Shown one piece after another: positions 4,276 through 33,650 of a stretch of DNA of 37,326 bases. The first letter of the stretch is position 1, and every line of letters begins with the position of its first letter. Both the position numbers and the translations under genes were made by a program. The notes beneath the pieces were generated by a model. The model was not told the DNA's origin. It worked only from the letters and a program-made list of their open reading frames with translations, and searched no databases. The DNA is from a virus. Where the stretch lies: positions 1-37,326 of IMG/VR virus record IMGVR_UViG_3300037247_000239; one strand, 5' to 3'.

Positions 4276-4454
4276 TTCGTCACCTTGTACACCTGGTTGA
4301 ACATCTTTCTAGGCATTGTGTGTCTGTCTAGTTCGCGCTGTACCCTGTCCCTATCTTTCTCGGTCAACTTCGGCCAGATGTGAATCACGCCCGCACAATC
4401 GAAACAGACTAGCCCCTTGACCGTAGTTGCCAGTTGCATCTTAGGTTGTGTCAT
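4272..4454 (-). CDS. Small CxxC protein
   Basis: 60 residues from ATG 4454, chosen over a frame extension to 4472 because GGAGGT lies six bases before this ATG. It contains one CFDC pair near residue 17 and a basic helical C-terminus. Its start overlaps the end of the next upstream gene (stop 4441). The N-terminus MTQPK is shared with its neighbour at 3958. Confidence 0.6.
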   Translation of the reverse strand: MTQPKMQLATTVKGLVCFDCAGVIHIWPKLTEKDRDRVQRELDRHTMPRKMFNQVYKVTK

Positions 4455-4602
4455 GGTTAGACCTCCATTCAATTATTGCTGCCCTCTCTTTAGGTGATAG
4501 TTCCTTACACTCGTCACACTTGTAACACAGGGGAAACTTAGTCCTAATGAAACGCCTAGCGCATACATAGCAGATACTCTCACCAGGAAATTTAGGTGTC
4601 AT
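4441..4602 (-). CDS. 53-aa zinc-ribbon-like protein
   Basis: Leftward frame from ATG 4602 to TAA 4441, overlapping both neighbours slightly. The product has CYVC at residues 11-14 and a second cluster C26-x2-C29-x2-C32, the pattern of a small zinc ribbon, then a helical tail (LSPKERAAIIEWRS). It fills the space between the 4454 and 4592 genes and its codons look protein-like. Confidence 0.65.
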   Translation of the reverse strand: MTPKFPGESICYVCARRFIRTKFPLCYKCDECKELSPKERAAIIEWRSNHDTT

Positions 4603-4819
4603 GGTTTGGTTCCTCCTGTTTAGCTAGTATGCGAAGCTCCTGCATGGCCCACCACATAGCCTCACGCTCCTCTAGGCGTAGGAACCCTGTGAACCTTGTG
4701 CGCCCATTATTGCCAACGCGTGGTTCATAGGCTCTTTCAGGTGAGGGTTTGACACCTCCATTTACATCTTCAATTAGCATCAATTCAAATACCCGTCTTG
4801 CCTCAGTGTTAGTCATCAT
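4592..4819 (-). CDS. Hypothetical protein
   Basis: 75 residues beginning with tandem ATG codons at 4819 and 4816 behind a full AGGAGG; the second ATG has the better spacing. The product has a central GNNGRTRFTGFLRLEER stretch and an aromatic WW pair. No family recognised. It overlaps the 53-aa zinc-ribbon gene at its 3' end. Confidence 0.55.
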   Translation of the reverse strand: MMTNTEARRVFELMLIEDVNGGVKPSPERAYEPRVGNNGRTRFTGFLRLEEREAMWWAMQELRILAKQEEPNHDT

Positions 4820-5422: not shown

Positions 5423-5677
5423 CTAGTTGATGCCTAACTCTGTGTTGCGCTCAATGATGTCTCGCACTTGATCCCAGCTGAAGTCACGCTCTATCACATC
5501 TGGGTTGCGCTTGACGTAGGCAACCATCTGTTGCACAACTTCGTCTCGCTCATCATCGTGCAACGTGGCGTCGGCCCATGCCTGTAAATGCTTGCGCGTG
5601 AAAGCGTCCATACACTTCCCACTACACTTGCAGTCCTTCCACTCTAAGCCGCATTCTGGGCAGAAAGGATAGGTCAT
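5423..5677 (-). CDS. Small N-terminal zinc-knuckle protein
   Basis: 84 residues. The N-terminus has CPEC near residue 6 and C16-x-C18-x3-C22, a cluster able to bind one zinc ion; the rest is an acidic helical domain (LHDDERDEVVQQMVAYVKR). ATG 5677 follows leader repeat copy 3 with AAGGAGG. No named family recognised. Confidence 0.6.
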   Translation of the reverse strand: MTYPFCPECGLEWKDCKCSGKCMDAFTRKHLQAWADATLHDDERDEVVQQMVAYVKRNPDVIERDFSWDQVRDIIERNTELGIN

Positions 5678-5680
5678 CGT

Positions 5681-5700
5681 CAGCCTCCTTACTCACGTTA
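5681..5700 (-). repeat. Leader repeat, copy 3
   Basis: Leftward-strand reading TAACGTGAGTAAGGAGGCTG, before the zinc-knuckle gene at 5423-5677. It shares GTGAGTAAG-GAGG with the other copies. Confidence 0.5.
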
Positions 5701-5705
5701 CCACT

Positions 5706-5927
5706 CTATGAGTCCAAGTTATCATAGCCCGCCAGCATCGGCACGCTGGAATCGCACAGCCCTACCTTGTGGCCACACTCGTACAATAGCTGATGCCGCC
5801 GCTTGCAGCAGTCAATGGATGGGTCGCGTTTGCTGGTACAACCAGGCTCGTGAACTCTGCCAGCACAAGCAGTGCAGTCCTGCCATCCTTCCCGCCGGCA
5901 CTCATGTCTAGGCTTGGACTGAGTCAT
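5706..5927 (-). CDS. Cys-rich small protein
   Basis: 73 residues from ATG 5927, chosen over an ATG at 5945 because AAGGAGGAG lies just before 5927. It has nine cysteines, including CTAC, a following GC, a CC pair and CGHKVGLC near the C-terminus, which could bind two metal ions. The upstream region (5951-5975) is a diverged copy of the promoter-leader of the next upstream gene. Confidence 0.55.
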   Translation of the reverse strand: MTQSKPRHECRREGWQDCTACAGRVHEPGCTSKRDPSIDCCKRRHQLLYECGHKVGLCDSSVPMLAGYDNLDS

Positions 5928-9884: not shown

Positions 9885-12083
9885 ATCCCTCTCCCCAAGG
9901 CCAAACAATTAGTCCTTTCAACTGAGGCCGCTAACCGGCTGGAGTTTACCATAGAGAATGATTTCTCTAAGGATAGCGCCGACCTATTAGAACGCAATAA
10001 CCGCATGAAGCGGTATTCCGGGCTGGCCCGCGCAGCGTCAGACACTCATGGAATACCCCAGGAGGAAAGGTCTAACTTCTCCATCCCGCTAATCCTATGG
10101 CAGCTACTGGCCAAGTTGGCTAAAGAACTGGATGTTCTACTGGGTGAAGAGTCTGAAATATCCGTCACCCCGATTGGGGAGAGTGATGTCGAACGCGCCA
10201 AGAAAGTAAAGAAATGGATGAACTGGCGTATTAAGGTTTCCCTCAAGCTGTTCAAGAAACTCTATCCCTACCTGTTACAGAAAAGTATCATGGGAACCTC
10301 GATTGGCTTTGTTCCCTGGGTAACTCGCAAGCGGCAGGTTAAGAAGTTTGTATCAGAAGAAGTAAATGATTTCAGGGAAGAACTGGTTGACGGCTTACCA
10401 GCCCAGGTACCTTTTACCCGAACAGAAGTACAAGAGGTAATCGAAGAAGTCATAGACTACGACGGGCCTGACTTGGTGGTCGAAGACCTGGAAGATTGGG
10501 TCGTTCCGACAACCGCCAAAGATATTGATAATGCCGACCACTTCATTCGTATTGTCCGGTTGGACATTGATGAAATACTTGATATGTCCGACAGCGGCAA
10601 GTTGGATTCTGACTTAATAAAAGAGAACATAGATAATCTGCGTAGAATCTCCGAGCATACCTTTCAGGCCACCGAAGTAAATAGTGATGTCTTCAAGGAA
10701 AAGAAAGAGCAACAGGGTGTGCCGGAAGTCCCGCAAGGCCGAGAAACTAGAGTTACCTTCTACAACTGGTTTGGGAAGTTCCGTATAGACGAAAAAGGCA
10801 CCAACGACCTAGAACGCAGTCAGGATGTTGTAGCTTTCTACCAGCCTGAGTTGAAGAAAGTCTTGGGCGTAAGTCTTTTGGTTGAGTCTTTTCCTGATGG
10901 CAGACGGCCCTTTATCAAGTCGGACGCCATTATGAATGTCAACCAGTTCTGGGGTTCCGGTCTGTGTGAGTTACTGGAGCCAATCAGTACCGAGATGGAT
11001 GCTTTACATACCCTGGCTGTAAGCGCCGCCGAAGGCGCGGTTGGCACGGTGGTTTTCGCCTCTCCCACCGCCGGCATTAACTGGGACAAGATAAGAATAG
11101 AACCAAATACCGTTATCTTTACCCCTAACCCGCAAGACATCAAGGTTGTTCCCTTGGGCCAGATTAACATGGGGCCTTACATAACCTTGATGCAGGAGCT
11201 GACTTCCTTTGCGGAGAGGTTGACCGCCCTGAATGACCCGCAGCTTGGAAGACAGTTATCCCAACCCAATGCGCCCAGGACCCTGGGTCAACAACAGCTA
11301 CTTCAGGCTGAGTCCAACGTAAGACTCTTACTGGATATTAGACTGGAAAGAGAGAATCTACGAGAACTGCTGAAGCGTATCTGGGAACTGGATAAGCGTT
11401 TCCTGGAGAAACCGGTATTCTTCCGGGTTACCGAGGAAGACCCTAGCGACACAATGACCGATGAAGATATGCAAGGGTCTTACGACTTTGATATTGGGCC
11501 GATTACCGCTCTCAGTAACCGCCAGCAGAAGACTCAAGAGCTATTACAGATGTTGGCCTTATCGGGTCAAGTAGGCATCCCGCAAGTAACAATGGCACTA
11601 TTCAAGCGGGCAGTTGAAAAGGCTGGTTTCCCCGATGTAGCCGCCTTAATACCAGATGCTAGTGAGCAAAAGCCTGGCATGTCGCCTCAAGAAGAAAATA
11701 CTCTCATGCTTCAGGGTAAGGATGTTGACCCCAGCCCGCTTGATAACCATACCAAACATATACCTGTTCACCAAGCGCAAGCTGACCGCTTGGTAGAATT
11801 TGAAAAGAAGCAGCCAGGTATATTAGCCCAAGCTGGTAAGCAAAATGTGGTTGCTAATATCCTCTCTCACATAGCTGAGCATACCGCAGCAATCAAGCGT
11901 GGTGGCTTAGGCGCGGGCGGTCTTACCCCACAAGTACAACAACAGCCTCAACAAGCTCAGTTAGGTCAAGGACAGCAACTAGGCGGTGCCCTAGGACAAC
12001 AGCAACCCGGCCAGCAATCTCCGGGTGACCCTGCTTCGCAGTTGTCAGGCTTACTGAATACTGGAGGAGCTAATTTAGGGTAA
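9885..12083 (+). CDS. Portal protein
   Basis: About 733 residues. Forms the dodecameric ring at the capsid vertex through which DNA passes and to which terminase and tail attach. The call rests on position after terL, size, the helical N-terminus, the ELLEPISTEMDALHTLA region and a Pro/Gln-rich C-terminal tail (from about 640) of repeated Gln. The first ATG is at 10005, but the same frame is open from 9876 and encodes protein-like sequence running into the ATG (LLERNNR-MKRYSG); no ATG/GTG/TTG occurs there. ATC at 9885 (then CCT) is the best-placed start candidate. Confidence 0.82.
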   Translation: MPLPKAKQLVLSTEAANRLEFTIENDFSKDSADLLERNNRMKRYSGLARAASDTHGIPQEERSNFSIPLILWQLLAKLAKELDVLLGEESEISVTPIGESDVERAKKVKKWMNWRIKVSLKLFKKLYPYLLQKSIMGTSIGFVPWVTRKRQVKKFVSEEVNDFREELVDGLPAQVPFTRTEVQEVIEEVIDYDGPDLVVEDLEDWVVPTTAKDIDNADHFIRIVRLDIDEILDMSDSGKLDSDLIKENIDNLRRISEHTFQATEVNSDVFKEKKEQQGVPEVPQGRETRVTFYNWFGKFRIDEKGTNDLERSQDVVAFYQPELKKVLGVSLLVESFPDGRRPFIKSDAIMNVNQFWGSGLCELLEPISTEMDALHTLAVSAAEGAVGTVVFASPTAGINWDKIRIEPNTVIFTPNPQDIKVVPLGQINMGPYITLMQELTSFAERLTALNDPQLGRQLSQPNAPRTLGQQQLLQAESNVRLLLDIRLERENLRELLKRIWELDKRFLEKPVFFRVTEEDPSDTMTDEDMQGSYDFDIGPITALSNRQQKTQELLQMLALSGQVGIPQVTMALFKRAVEKAGFPDVAALIPDASEQKPGMSPQEENTLMLQGKDVDPSPLDNHTKHIPVHQAQADRLVEFEKKQPGILAQAGKQNVVANILSHIAEHTAAIKRGGLGAGGLTPQVQQQPQQAQLGQGQQLGGALGQQQPGQQSPGDPASQLSGLLNTGGANLG

Positions 12084-27705: not shown

Positions 27706-29766
27706 TTGGGAATAAGAAACCAACAGAAGATTTCATCGCTAGGGATAGTGCCAGGGATACGGCTGGCGCTTAACCCTTTTGCTCAACAAGTAGGCTCAGC
27801 GAGAATGTTGCGTAACTTTGTACCAGAACGCGGACGACTAGCTCGTAAGTCATTCAGTCCAAACTTTACTACTTCATCCAGTTCAAGTTCTGTTTGGCAT
27901 ACTAAGAATTTCAGATATACTCGCGCCAATGCTCCAGAAAATGAGATATTAGTATTTAAGTCTGATGGCAAGGTGTATAAAAGAGTACCCAGCCAGGAGC
28001 AGGAGATATTCCCCGGCGTCACATCGTTTGCGGTACTAAACCAGAAGCCCTTTGTCGGCCAACTGGGTAACAGATTCTTTTGGCATGATGGCTCTTCGGG
28101 ATATGTTTATGATGGCCGTGATGTTCAAACATGGGGCATAGAAAGGGAAACATCTGCACCCTCAACCTCTGCTACCGGTACTGGACTAACCATGAGTACC
28201 GGCCTGAAAGCGGCTATTACCTGGGTAGTCTTAGATGAAGCTGGTAACAGGGTACATGAGTCCAGTCGCAGCGATGTGGCTGCCTTCCAAGCACTCTCTA
28301 ATGAGAACCTGCAAATTGATAAGTCTGGGTTGTCAGATGATGCTAGAGCAACACACTGGTCAGGATATGTGTCAGAACTAGACGGCAGTGAAATATTGCG
28401 AAGAACAAATACTACCATTATAACTACGGATACCTTTATCGTAACTGCACTACCAGCAGCCTTGGATGCTAAAGCGCCCACACTAAACGACCCACCGCCC
28501 AAGTCAACTGTAGGAGAGGTTACAAAAAACCGTATTTTCCTACGGGACAATCAGAACCCTGAGAACCTATGGTTTTCTGCCCTCGGTGAGGTTAAAGGGT
28601 CTAGCAATGGAGCACCGGATGAATCATTTCCGGGTAAAGATTCTTCTTCTATATCAAACTTGGTAAATAATGATTTCATCCCCGACAGGGAAATATCTGC
28701 TATCAAGAGCCATAGTAATATTATCTTCCTGTTTAGTGAGCGTAGAGGCTTCGGGTTGACTGGTGAGCTATCGCTCCTGGATAACCGTGCCCCTAGAGAT
28801 ATGACTAAGTTAGAGGTCTTTTCAGAAGGATGTGCTGGTGCAAATGCTATCGAGTCAACACCCTTTGGCCTAGTCTGGTTCACGCCTGGCAGAAAGCTAT
28901 GGCTGTGGGCTGGTGGACAGGAACTACTAGATATAGGCGAACCTATCCAAACCCTGCTAGGAACTATTCCGGCTGGTAGCCTGAATAATGTCTACATGAA
29001 GTGGTGGGAAGGTAATGGTCGCCAGTGGTTAGTAATAGCTCTTAATAGTAGAGACGGCGAGTCGCCGGATGATAGCTCTACCCTGGCCCAACGCACTTTG
29101 ATATATGACTTCTCGCTACCCTCTCCTCGTCCTGATAGGACACAACCTGACCCTGGCTCATGGATTGAGTGGACAGATATTACCGCTACCGCTATCGGTA
29201 CCTATATCGCCAACGATGGCCAAGAGTTCCTGCTAATTGGTGATAGTTCTGGCAACGTCAAACAAGCAGACACCATTGTCAGTCCCTGCCACCTGAACCG
29301 CTCCTTTATACTGAGTGAGTGCTACCTGGGTTCTACGGTGCAAAATAATCCCCAAGCTGACTTGCGCACTAGCTTATTGCTACCCTCCAGTGACCAGTGG
29401 AGCGTTGGACATTACCTGCAACTATTAACCGGTGACCAGAATGACCCTGGCGTACCATCAGCAGGTGATTTTACCGAACCTACTATATCCAGTTGGATAG
29501 ACCCCGCTTCCGCTGATAGCCCTGGAACGGCCATTACCCTTACGCTGGACTCGGCCCTAACCAGCGGCGACAAAAGAGCCTGGTTAATACCTGATACCAC
29601 CAATACCACTAAGGCTGGAGCCTTTGCCAAACAGTTTCTATTTCAAGCCCAGTATGCTGCTGGGGTAGACGACACCGGTAATGCTGATAATCGCGAGACT
29701 AATAGAATTAATACTATATATAAGATGGGTTTCACGTGGTCGCCCAAGCCGGAGATGGCTGCTTAA
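27706..29766 (+). CDS. Tail nozzle / stabilisation protein (tail tube B-like)
   Basis: 686 residues from TTG 27706 directly after the previous stop. Starts with the typical NPFAQQVGSARMLRNFVPE, then many beta-strand blocks; the AIKSHSNIIFLFSERRGFGL segment and GCAGANAIESTPFGLVWFTP followed by KLWLWAGG are characteristic of the podovirus nozzle or stabilisation protein family (P22 gp10/T7 gp12 functional class). It forms the tail tip through which DNA leaves. Confidence 0.75.
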   Translation: MGIRNQQKISSLGIVPGIRLALNPFAQQVGSARMLRNFVPERGRLARKSFSPNFTTSSSSSSVWHTKNFRYTRANAPENEILVFKSDGKVYKRVPSQEQEIFPGVTSFAVLNQKPFVGQLGNRFFWHDGSSGYVYDGRDVQTWGIERETSAPSTSATGTGLTMSTGLKAAITWVVLDEAGNRVHESSRSDVAAFQALSNENLQIDKSGLSDDARATHWSGYVSELDGSEILRRTNTTIITTDTFIVTALPAALDAKAPTLNDPPPKSTVGEVTKNRIFLRDNQNPENLWFSALGEVKGSSNGAPDESFPGKDSSSISNLVNNDFIPDREISAIKSHSNIIFLFSERRGFGLTGELSLLDNRAPRDMTKLEVFSEGCAGANAIESTPFGLVWFTPGRKLWLWAGGQELLDIGEPIQTLLGTIPAGSLNNVYMKWWEGNGRQWLVIALNSRDGESPDDSSTLAQRTLIYDFSLPSPRPDRTQPDPGSWIEWTDITATAIGTYIANDGQEFLLIGDSSGNVKQADTIVSPCHLNRSFILSECYLGSTVQNNPQADLRTSLLLPSSDQWSVGHYLQLLTGDQNDPGVPSAGDFTEPTISSWIDPASADSPGTAITLTLDSALTSGDKRAWLIPDTTNTTKAGAFAKQFLFQAQYAAGVDDTGNADNRETNRINTIYKMGFTWSPKPEMAA

Positions 29767-29767
29767 T

Positions 29768-30613
29768 ATGCCTCTACAATTATCTATCCCAATTACCGAA
29801 CTACAGCAGTTGCGCAGCAGCACCAAACTTAGTCAAGCCGGTGGTCTTACCTTTTCCAAGCCAACAACACCTTCTAATATTGTCGTTACCGGTTTGAAGT
29901 TCGGCTTTGTAATCCAGTGGTCTAAGGTATCAGGTGTGACCGGCTATCAAATAGCTGTAATGAGTGGAAACAACCTAGCTGCTCCCAACTTACTATTAAG
30001 CGAGATGGGCGAAGACAGCATGGAGAGGCCATATTTTGTTGGCGATGTTGCGCTTACCCGGAGTTTTGCGGTCAGAGCCTTTATTCAAAGTACGACGGGA
30101 TTCCTGTTTTCTAAGTTTACTGAGATTAAATCTGGAACCTCTAAGGTTGATGGGGGAGTATCCGATGGAACCCCAGCCGACCCACCCGCACCTCCTCCTG
30201 ACCCCGGAGAGTCACCAGAGGAGCCTTGCCTGGTAGAAGGCTCATTGGTTAAGACACCTAATGGTTATATTCCAGTAGAAACAGCGGGCAAGTTCCTGAT
30301 AACCCATATCGGTACCTGCGAATCCATTATGGTGAATGTTCCAATAGAAGCCAAGTGCTACAAGGTCTTAATCCAGTCAAAACCGGAGTTTGAGTGTTCA
30401 TATTCTCACCCGCTTCAAGTGTTGGGTAGGGGATGGACTAGAGTAGAAAACCTGTTTACTGATGACAAGGTAAATACCGAAGATGGTTTTCTTCCTATTA
30501 TTTCGATTGAACCGACTGGAAAAAGAATTGTTAGACATCTCAAGTTAGATGGCCCTATTAATAGTTATCAGTCTTTGGGTGGGGTCTACTCACATAACTC
30601 TATAGCTAAATAA
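29768..30613 (+). CDS. FN3-like protein with C-terminal Hint (intein-like) domain
   Basis: 281 residues from ATG 29768. Residues 32-120 look like a fibronectin type III domain (PTTPSNIVVTGLKFGFVIQW, then TGYQIAVMSG). A Pro/Asp-rich linker (APPPDPGESPEEP, 141-153) leads to a Hint domain of 124 residues: Cys154 (CLVEGSLVKTPNGYIPVE, block A), ECSYSHPLQV with His214 (block B) and the C-terminal SLGGVYSHNS with His276-Asn277 (block G). Only SIAK follows Asn277. All residues for self-splicing or self-cleavage are present. It lies between nozzle and ejection genes, so it is probably a virion protein matured by cleavage or ligation. Confidence 0.8.
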   Translation: MPLQLSIPITELQQLRSSTKLSQAGGLTFSKPTTPSNIVVTGLKFGFVIQWSKVSGVTGYQIAVMSGNNLAAPNLLLSEMGEDSMERPYFVGDVALTRSFAVRAFIQSTTGFLFSKFTEIKSGTSKVDGGVSDGTPADPPAPPPDPGESPEEPCLVEGSLVKTPNGYIPVETAGKFLITHIGTCESIMVNVPIEAKCYKVLIQSKPEFECSYSHPLQVLGRGWTRVENLFTDDKVNTEDGFLPIISIEPTGKRIVRHLKLDGPINSYQSLGGVYSHNSIAK

Positions 30614-30614
30614 T

Positions 30615-30634
30615 ATGGTTTCCTATGGTTTCCT
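30615..30634 (+). repeat. Tandem 10-bp duplication at a start codon
   Basis: ATGGTTTCCT occurs twice in direct tandem (30615-30624 and 30625-30634). The first ATG leads to a stop after ten codons; the second is in frame with the 30625-30993 gene. The duplication therefore supplies the working start. Confidence 0.8.
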
Positions 30635-31984: not shown

Positions 31985-32437
31985 ATGCCACAGTTCCTAA
32001 CCCGACAATCATTCTTTCAACAACAGCCCCAAGCAGCCCAATTACCTTTCAGCCAGTTTGGAGGTAATCGCCCTCCATTACAGGGTGATACTACCGGTGG
32101 CATAGCTTTTCCTGATGCTGGTCAAGCTGGACAGCCTACCCAATCCCCACTGTCACCATTCCTGTTACCAACCGGCCTCTCAGATACTGAACTGAATGCC
32201 TTGCTGGGTGTCTCCGGGTTACCAGGAACTAAACAACAGTTGCTAGGGTTTGACCCTATTGCTCTACAAGATTTTAGCAGAGGAGGGTTTAATACTGGCC
32301 TCTTTGGAAACCAACAGCCTGCCCAGACATCCAGCTTGCCGCCTGGTGGTATTCCAATTGAGGGCAGTGGTGGGTTTGATAAGTTTAATCCTGTTATTGC
32401 CGGTGGTACACAACCTAATAAACTAGGTGGGTTCTAA
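31985..32437 (+). CDS. Gln/Pro/Gly-rich virion-region protein
   Basis: 150 residues without predicted fold except short helical TELNALLGVSGLPGTKQQLLG. Rich in Gln, Pro and Gly, uncommon in enzymes and usual for flexible internal virion proteins. Two bases after the previous stop; ends just before the 32439 gene. Confidence 0.5.
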   Translation: MPQFLTRQSFFQQQPQAAQLPFSQFGGNRPPLQGDTTGGIAFPDAGQAGQPTQSPLSPFLLPTGLSDTELNALLGVSGLPGTKQQLLGFDPIALQDFSRGGFNTGLFGNQQPAQTSSLPPGGIPIEGSGGFDKFNPVIAGGTQPNKLGGF

Positions 32438-32438
32438 T

Positions 32439-33650
32439 ATGCCAGGACTGTTCGGGCGACAAACACTAAGTAGAGAAGTAACTGGCTTAGTTGGGCCACA
32501 GCAAGCTCCTCCAGTTAATACCGGCCAAGGTGGTGTGCCAGGACTGGGCGTACAGGGTGTTCCCCAACCACCTCCACCTGAATTACAGACCCAGAATATT
32601 GAGATTCAAGGCCCTAACCGTGGCATCAATCTTATATCCGACTTCCTGACTGGCTTCGGTGGAGGGCCGGGCGCTGCTACTCAACAGCAAGCTCAAAGGT
32701 CAGCACAGACTGAGAGGCTGTTTGGTGCTCAGCAACGACAGGTAAATCAACAGTCTCAACTGGCACAGCAGCAACGGCAATTTGGACTCCAGCAGCAGAA
32801 TCTACAATTATCTCAACAGCGAGAAGAACGAGTAGCAGAAGATGCTACCATCAATCAGTTACTTAATAGTATTTCTATTGATGTTGATAGGAACACTGGC
32901 GAGGTAACACTGACAGATAAAATAGCGGCACTACAGGGACTACCTGGTGCCGTCAGGATATTACGCAAGAAGAAAGATGTAGATTTCAATATAGCTCAGC
33001 TACTACCTCCTAATGCTACCAAAGAAGATATTAATACCGTTTCCATAGCGTTTCAGTTTGGCGGCGACAAGCAGGGACTGCGAGAGCTATTAAAGGTCAG
33101 GAAAGATATTGCTGGCCGTCCTGGGATTTTACAATCCAGGCGTCGCCAGCTAGCCCAAGCCGAACGTGGTCTGCGCGCTGACTATCTAAAAGAAGCTGGT
33201 TCCTTTATAAAGATTCGTGACCAGTTTGATAGGGTACAACTAGCCTCTCAAGACCCAACCGGTGCGTCCGACCTGTCAATGATATTTGCTTTTATGAAGA
33301 TGCTCGACCCGACATCGGTTGTACGTGAGTCTGAGTTCAGGGCAGCGGCAAGCATTGGTTCTATACCTCAACGCATTGAGGGATTCAGAAAGAAGATAAC
33401 CACTGGGGAATTTCTGTCAGCGGGACAGCGTGCTAATTTCCTAGCAGAAGCAGTCAAGTTATTTGGGCGTTCCAAGTCTCGTAAGGAAGCTATTGATAAC
33501 CGGTTCAGGAAGATTTCTATAGGACAGGGTATTAATCCTGAAAACGTAATCCAAAGTTTTGGCTTTGAAACACAAGGTATTACCCAGCCACAAGGAAAAC
33601 CAACCCATCGTTTCAATCCTGAAACTGGCAAGGTAGAACCCATTCAATAA
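32439..33650 (+). CDS. Internal virion / DNA ejection protein
   Basis: About 403 residues from ATG 32439 (a GTG at 32427 lies inside the previous gene and is rejected). Gln-rich coiled coil at 85-135 (QQQAQRSAQTERLFGAQQRQ). The segment DLSMIFAFMKMLDPTSVVRE near residue 283 is a motif recurring in phage internal and ejection proteins, some fused to lytic transglycosylases; no such catalytic domain is seen here. Coupled to the next gene by TAATG. Confidence 0.65.
   Translation: MPGLFGRQTLSREVTGLVGPQQAPPVNTGQGGVPGLGVQGVPQPPPPELQTQNIEIQGPNRGINLISDFLTGFGGGPGAATQQQAQRSAQTERLFGAQQRQVNQQSQLAQQQRQFGLQQQNLQLSQQREERVAEDATINQLLNSISIDVDRNTGEVTLTDKIAALQGLPGAVRILRKKKDVDFNIAQLLPPNATKEDINTVSIAFQFGGDKQGLRELLKVRKDIAGRPGILQSRRRQLAQAERGLRADYLKEAGSFIKIRDQFDRVQLASQDPTGASDLSMIFAFMKMLDPTSVVRESEFRAAASIGSIPQRIEGFRKKITTGEFLSAGQRANFLAEAVKLFGRSKSRKEAIDNRFRKISIGQGINPENVIQSFGFETQGITQPQGKPTHRFNPETGKVEPIQ

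Follow-up and report, generated by a model that had tools for sequence, protein, structure and literature searches.

A Hint domain, probably an endonuclease-free mini-intein, at the C-terminal end of a variable protein encoded beside a viral nozzle gene

The window analyzed in this paper is a whole IMG/VR virus record of 37,326 bp. On its plus strand, the open reading frame at 29768-30613 encodes a protein of 281 aa and is preceded by a gene (27706-29766) that matches the PHROG head closure Hc3 with E=1.5e-6, which supports the earlier placement of the locus in a virion region. The host gene is small and poorly conserved and lies beside the nozzle gene. The features of the locus are as follows.

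29768..30226, plus strand: residues 1-153, the host part on the N-terminal side (predicted N-extein), whose variable, Pro-rich tail ends in PGESPEEP
30227..30598, plus strand: Hint domain (predicted mini-intein) of 124 aa, Cys154 to Asn277, from the intein profile, tblastn, Pfam and Foldseek
30227..30265, plus strand: block A, Cys154 and CLVEGSLVKTPNG, with C1, G5, T10 and G13 invariant against six other inteins
30395..30412, plus strand: block B, CSYSHP, an S-x-x-H motif with His214, whose His and Pro do not vary among the aligned inteins
30536..30598, plus strand: blocks F and G, HLKLDGPINSYQSLGGVYSHN, ending in His276-Asn277, from the alignments
30599..30613, plus strand: predicted C-extein Ser278-Ile-Ala-Lys and the TAA stop, from the sequence
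30614..30633, plus strand: tandem duplicate of TATGGTTTCC right after the stop, reaching across the beginning of the next gene, against a single copy in relatives

The residues named in a previous, sequence-only reading of this DNA, namely Cys154 (nt 30227), His214, His276 (30593), Asn277 (30596), Ser278 (30599) and the Ile-Ala-Lys that follows before the stop, are all exactly where that reading put them, and block B reads Ser211-x-x-His214 (S211-Y-S-H214, at 30398-30409). In block F the alignments give a His in place of the usual Asp, and the block's own His is missing. The N-terminal part had been labelled FN3 from a pattern seen by eye alone; the Pfam, PHROGs and PDB profile searches gave no FN3 match to that part.

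The identity of the C-terminal domain was addressed with an intein profile (HMM) built from seven phage or plasmid inteins, stripped of their endonuclease parts and not including the target. The target scores 55 bits against this profile (i-Evalue 5.7e-19 for this single comparison), while the best of 5000 shuffles of its letters reaches 7.8 bits, and none of the other open reading frames of the window scores with it. In tblastn, a PhoH mini-intein matches target residues 160-278 (E=3e-3 with the full protein and 5e-4 with the Hint alone), followed by weaker matches to inteins in terminase, portal and thymidylate synthase genes. Nearly all database matches that can be read as Hint are inteins, located in terminase, portal, thymidylate synthase, PhoH, RecA, MuF-like, methyltransferase and helicase genes. 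Identity of the target Hint to each intein aligned with it is 22-30%, and the target and six other inteins all share Cys1, Gly5, Thr10, Gly13, the His-Pro of block B and the terminal Asn. The Pfam Hint_2 match is confined to block A (E=2e-4 with the domain alone) and falls below the curated cut-off, and the PHROGs and NCBIfam searches of the target gave no match. A PDB profile match to VidaL was discounted as independent evidence, two of the three profile rows being other inteins that inflate the score.

Two AlphaFold2 models, built from shallow alignments, are weak (pLDDT 51 and 62, pTM 0.50 and 0.62). In Foldseek searches of the PDB, inteins or BIL domains fill the first 10 places for the first model and the first 12 for the second, though global superposition is poor and every E is 0.001 or higher; the second model matches the C. 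thermocellum BIL domain 2lwy best, but not significantly. A profile and structure comparison had been proposed as a check of the Hint fold, and its ranking agrees with that fold, though at low model confidence. Because the models are weak and no Foldseek match has an E below 0.001, it is the sequence evidence that carries the assignment. From the profile score and the intact invariant catalytic residues there is a strong case that this domain belongs to the Hint superfamily, as had been proposed, and at 124 aa it is free of a homing endonuclease insert, also as described before.

Scans of IMG/VR with the full target protein and with the Hint alone found no relatives, and scans with Hint alignments returned other inteins or a MuF-like Hint and nothing else; one alignment of seven sequences (A8) was too divergent for scanning. 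In bacterial genomes, one Hint scan and one nozzle scan found nothing. The Acinetobacter phage matches to the Hint were dropped as chance, no Hint motifs being visible by eye, and a Salmonella RNR match was rejected since the gene shows no intein. We also noted a RecA-like gene in Salicola phage SCTP-2 (gp204, L009:2587-4557), annotated only as a hypothetical protein, that seems to contain two separate mini-intein-type Hints.

Portal and nozzle scans gave loci from just three related viral contigs. A related nozzle gene was found in just two viral contigs, L004 (85% identical) and L005 (92%), while a 17.5 kb fragment (L013) showed no match to the target protein. Both L004 and L005 encode an orthologue of the target that does not contain the Hint: in L004 it lies at 4330-4794, has 155 aa and ends with PDPGDLPEKPGGPI (PEKPGGPI), and in L005 it lies at 10247-10729, has 161 aa and ends with APEFPGGGGGQLR (EFPGGGGGQLR). 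These orthologues are 48-53% identical to the N-terminal part of the target, and when the target protein was compared with the full records, both of them fragments, residues 1-153 matched and nothing else. On the N side the alignment runs as far as Pro153; the four-residue C-extein gives no protein alignment and is too short for an exact insertion point. The codons of SIAK show a weak DNA similarity to the end of the L005 gene (shuffle p about 0.04). Removal of residues 154-277 leaves 153+4 = 157 aa, against 155 and 161 aa in the orthologues, whose C-termini are no more than a few residues away from where the spliced target is predicted to end; the tail of the host protein differs in both length and sequence among the three relatives. 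The insert has a GC content of 41.7% against a local mean of 47.3% (SD 3.2), which weakly suggests a separate origin. From these two relatives only, we infer that the Hint was gained in this phage rather than lost in the others.

The surroundings of the gene also differ among the three viruses. At 30614-30633 of the window an exact 10-bp tandem duplicate of TATGGTTTCC lies between the target stop and the start of the next gene; its first ATG opens a short out-of-frame peptide and its second (30625) starts a conserved gene. In both relatives a zinc-ribbon-like open reading frame of ~60 codons (CPDC...CKIHG) separates the nozzle gene from the target gene (L004:4142-4330 and L005:10052-10246); it is absent from the window (29766-29768). 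Downstream of the Hint-less orthologue of L004, after two further genes, there is a free-standing LAGLIDADG_1 homing endonuclease open reading frame (5531-5926, E=5.4e-7), and none was seen at the corresponding place in the window. The duplicate, the missing zinc-ribbon-like frame and the LAGLIDADG endonuclease of L004 mark this region as fluid. In a later virion gene, the 407-aa protein at 32427-33650 of the window and the 442-aa protein at L005:12444-13772 have N- and C-terminal stretches in common and middles that look unrelated, suggesting a module exchange.

The reading that fits these data best is that the target Hint is probably an endonuclease-free class 1 mini-intein of 124 aa, inserted four codons before the stop, which would excise itself by splicing or cleavage. 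Cys154 at position 1, S211-Y-S-H214, H276-N277 and the +1 Ser278 are all present, and two orthologous host genes without the insert, those of L004 and L005, are at hand. Cys154 rules out the class 2 (Ala1) mechanism, and the class 3 mechanism (block F Cys) is ruled out as block F has no Cys. The sequence-only reading had held that this could not be an ordinary intein since nothing follows SIAK. Yet the Ser of SIAK is a proper +1 nucleophile and the Hint-less orthologues have about the 157 aa of a spliced target, and because of this the data agree with a mini-intein whose C-extein is very short.

In the proposed mechanism, Cys154 would attack the carbonyl of Pro153, Ser278 would take over the N-terminal part and Asn277 would cyclize, and the splicing product would be residues 1-153 joined to SIAK, a protein of 157 aa that falls in the length class of the Hint-less orthologues. 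Ligation may fail because Pro is a slow -1 residue, and the same chemistry would then remove the Hint to give a protein ending at Pro153, or would clip off SIAK alone. In one intein that was tested with all 20 residues, Pro at -1 made N-terminal cleavage slow but workable (PMC11842431). The replaced Asp and the missing His of block F also lower our confidence in fast splicing. We infer that the Hint would be active; self-processing of the host protein, which had been proposed earlier, is naturally expected, while the ligation to a virion component that was proposed with it is unsupported.

The mini-intein reading is favored by the full core class 1 residue set, kept despite only 22-30% identity to the aligned inteins, and we also counted in its favor the tandem 10-bp duplicate at the right edge of the insert, the LAGLIDADG endonuclease downstream in L004 and the GC content of the insert. 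Counted against it are the site, a variable tail in a gene without a recognized enzyme domain (a setting met more typically with BIL domains), and also the -1 Pro, the block F changes, the weak DNA match of SIAK to L005 and the lack of a close homologue of the Hint. It is conceivable, if rather unlikely, that a BIL-like domain sits at a hypervariable protein end and mainly cleaves, at Pro153/Cys154 and/or after Asn277, trimming or diversifying the host C-terminus. The slow -1 Pro and the rank of 2lwy as best (not significant) Foldseek match of the second model would agree with this, as would the non-conserved host protein and its variable tail, given that BIL domains are described in the variable regions of non-conserved proteins (PMC7765530). 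However, inteins make up most of the sequence matches, and Ser278 is present, whereas BIL domains are described without a +1 nucleophile (PMC7664689). More doubtful still is the idea that the Hint is inactive, a relic or fusion carried passively at the C-terminus: the poor -1 residue and the changes in block F speak for it, as does the tolerance of this gene's end to change, but the core catalytic residues and an unbroken frame are kept at a great divergence from other inteins.

The explanation put forward earlier amounts to a maturation step in which the host protein, then regarded as FN3-like, would be joined in Hedgehog style to a small nucleophile or to some other part of the virion. The gene does sit between the nozzle and later virion genes, and another nucleophile could in principle intercept the N-S acyl-shift chemistry. 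Yet the +1 Ser already supplies an internal nucleophile, and SIAK alone follows the Hint, leaving no room for an adduct-recognition region; together with the orthologues of the two nearest relatives found, which do without the Hint, this makes such a linking highly improbable. A conserved role in virion maturation or ligation is disfavored for the reason that both close relatives manage without the domain. It is likewise very hard to credit that the Hint was recruited in this phage lineage to act on a virion-neck protein as virions assemble, processing its C-terminus or attaching it covalently, a maturation step that is not known in phages.

Inteins are thought to persist through essential conserved sites, from which they cannot be lost imprecisely without killing. 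A mini-intein that looks intact, lies in the variable tail of a gene, has a C-extein of four residues and should be cheap to lose does not fit this view. Such a case could bridge inteins and BIL domains, and could illustrate how a Hint domain turns into a module for processing C-termini. If active, it would also be a natural mini-intein of very small size that has almost no C-extein, and a possible tool for making defined C-termini.

Among known systems, phage class 1 mini-inteins such as the PhoH mini-intein (LR756500), the TerL mini-intein (Caudoviricetes vir335) and gp41-1, whose structure is solved, share with the target the Hint fold and the block B S/T-x-x-H. Like the target, they have a terminal Asn (usually His-Asn) with Ser, Cys or Thr at +1, and about 125-135 aa with no endonuclease. 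They differ from it in that they interrupt conserved enzyme genes and have long C-exteins, whereas the target has Pro at -1 and its variable host gene, with no recognized enzyme domain, continues for just four codons after it before the stop. The usual site of inteins is at conserved active sites of nucleic-acid enzymes, and mycobacteriophage inteins are found in nucleic-acid-binding proteins at functional motifs (PMC5050341). A-type BIL domains have in common with the target the Hint fold, the terminal His-Asn and a place in the variable part of a non-conserved protein, but the A-type is described without the +1 nucleophile that Ser278 provides here. The Hedgehog Hog domain is also a Hint fold on the C-terminal side of the protein to be processed; it carries a sterol or adduct recognition region, whereas the target ends four residues after Asn277 without one and keeps the His-Asn and the +1 Ser, as inteins do. 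In the literature searched, with many subscription papers outside its coverage, we found no description of a Hint with intein residues in a BIL-like setting. The target Hint combines the residues of an intein with the setting of a BIL domain, and it is best filed as a putative intein-type Hint at an unusual site.
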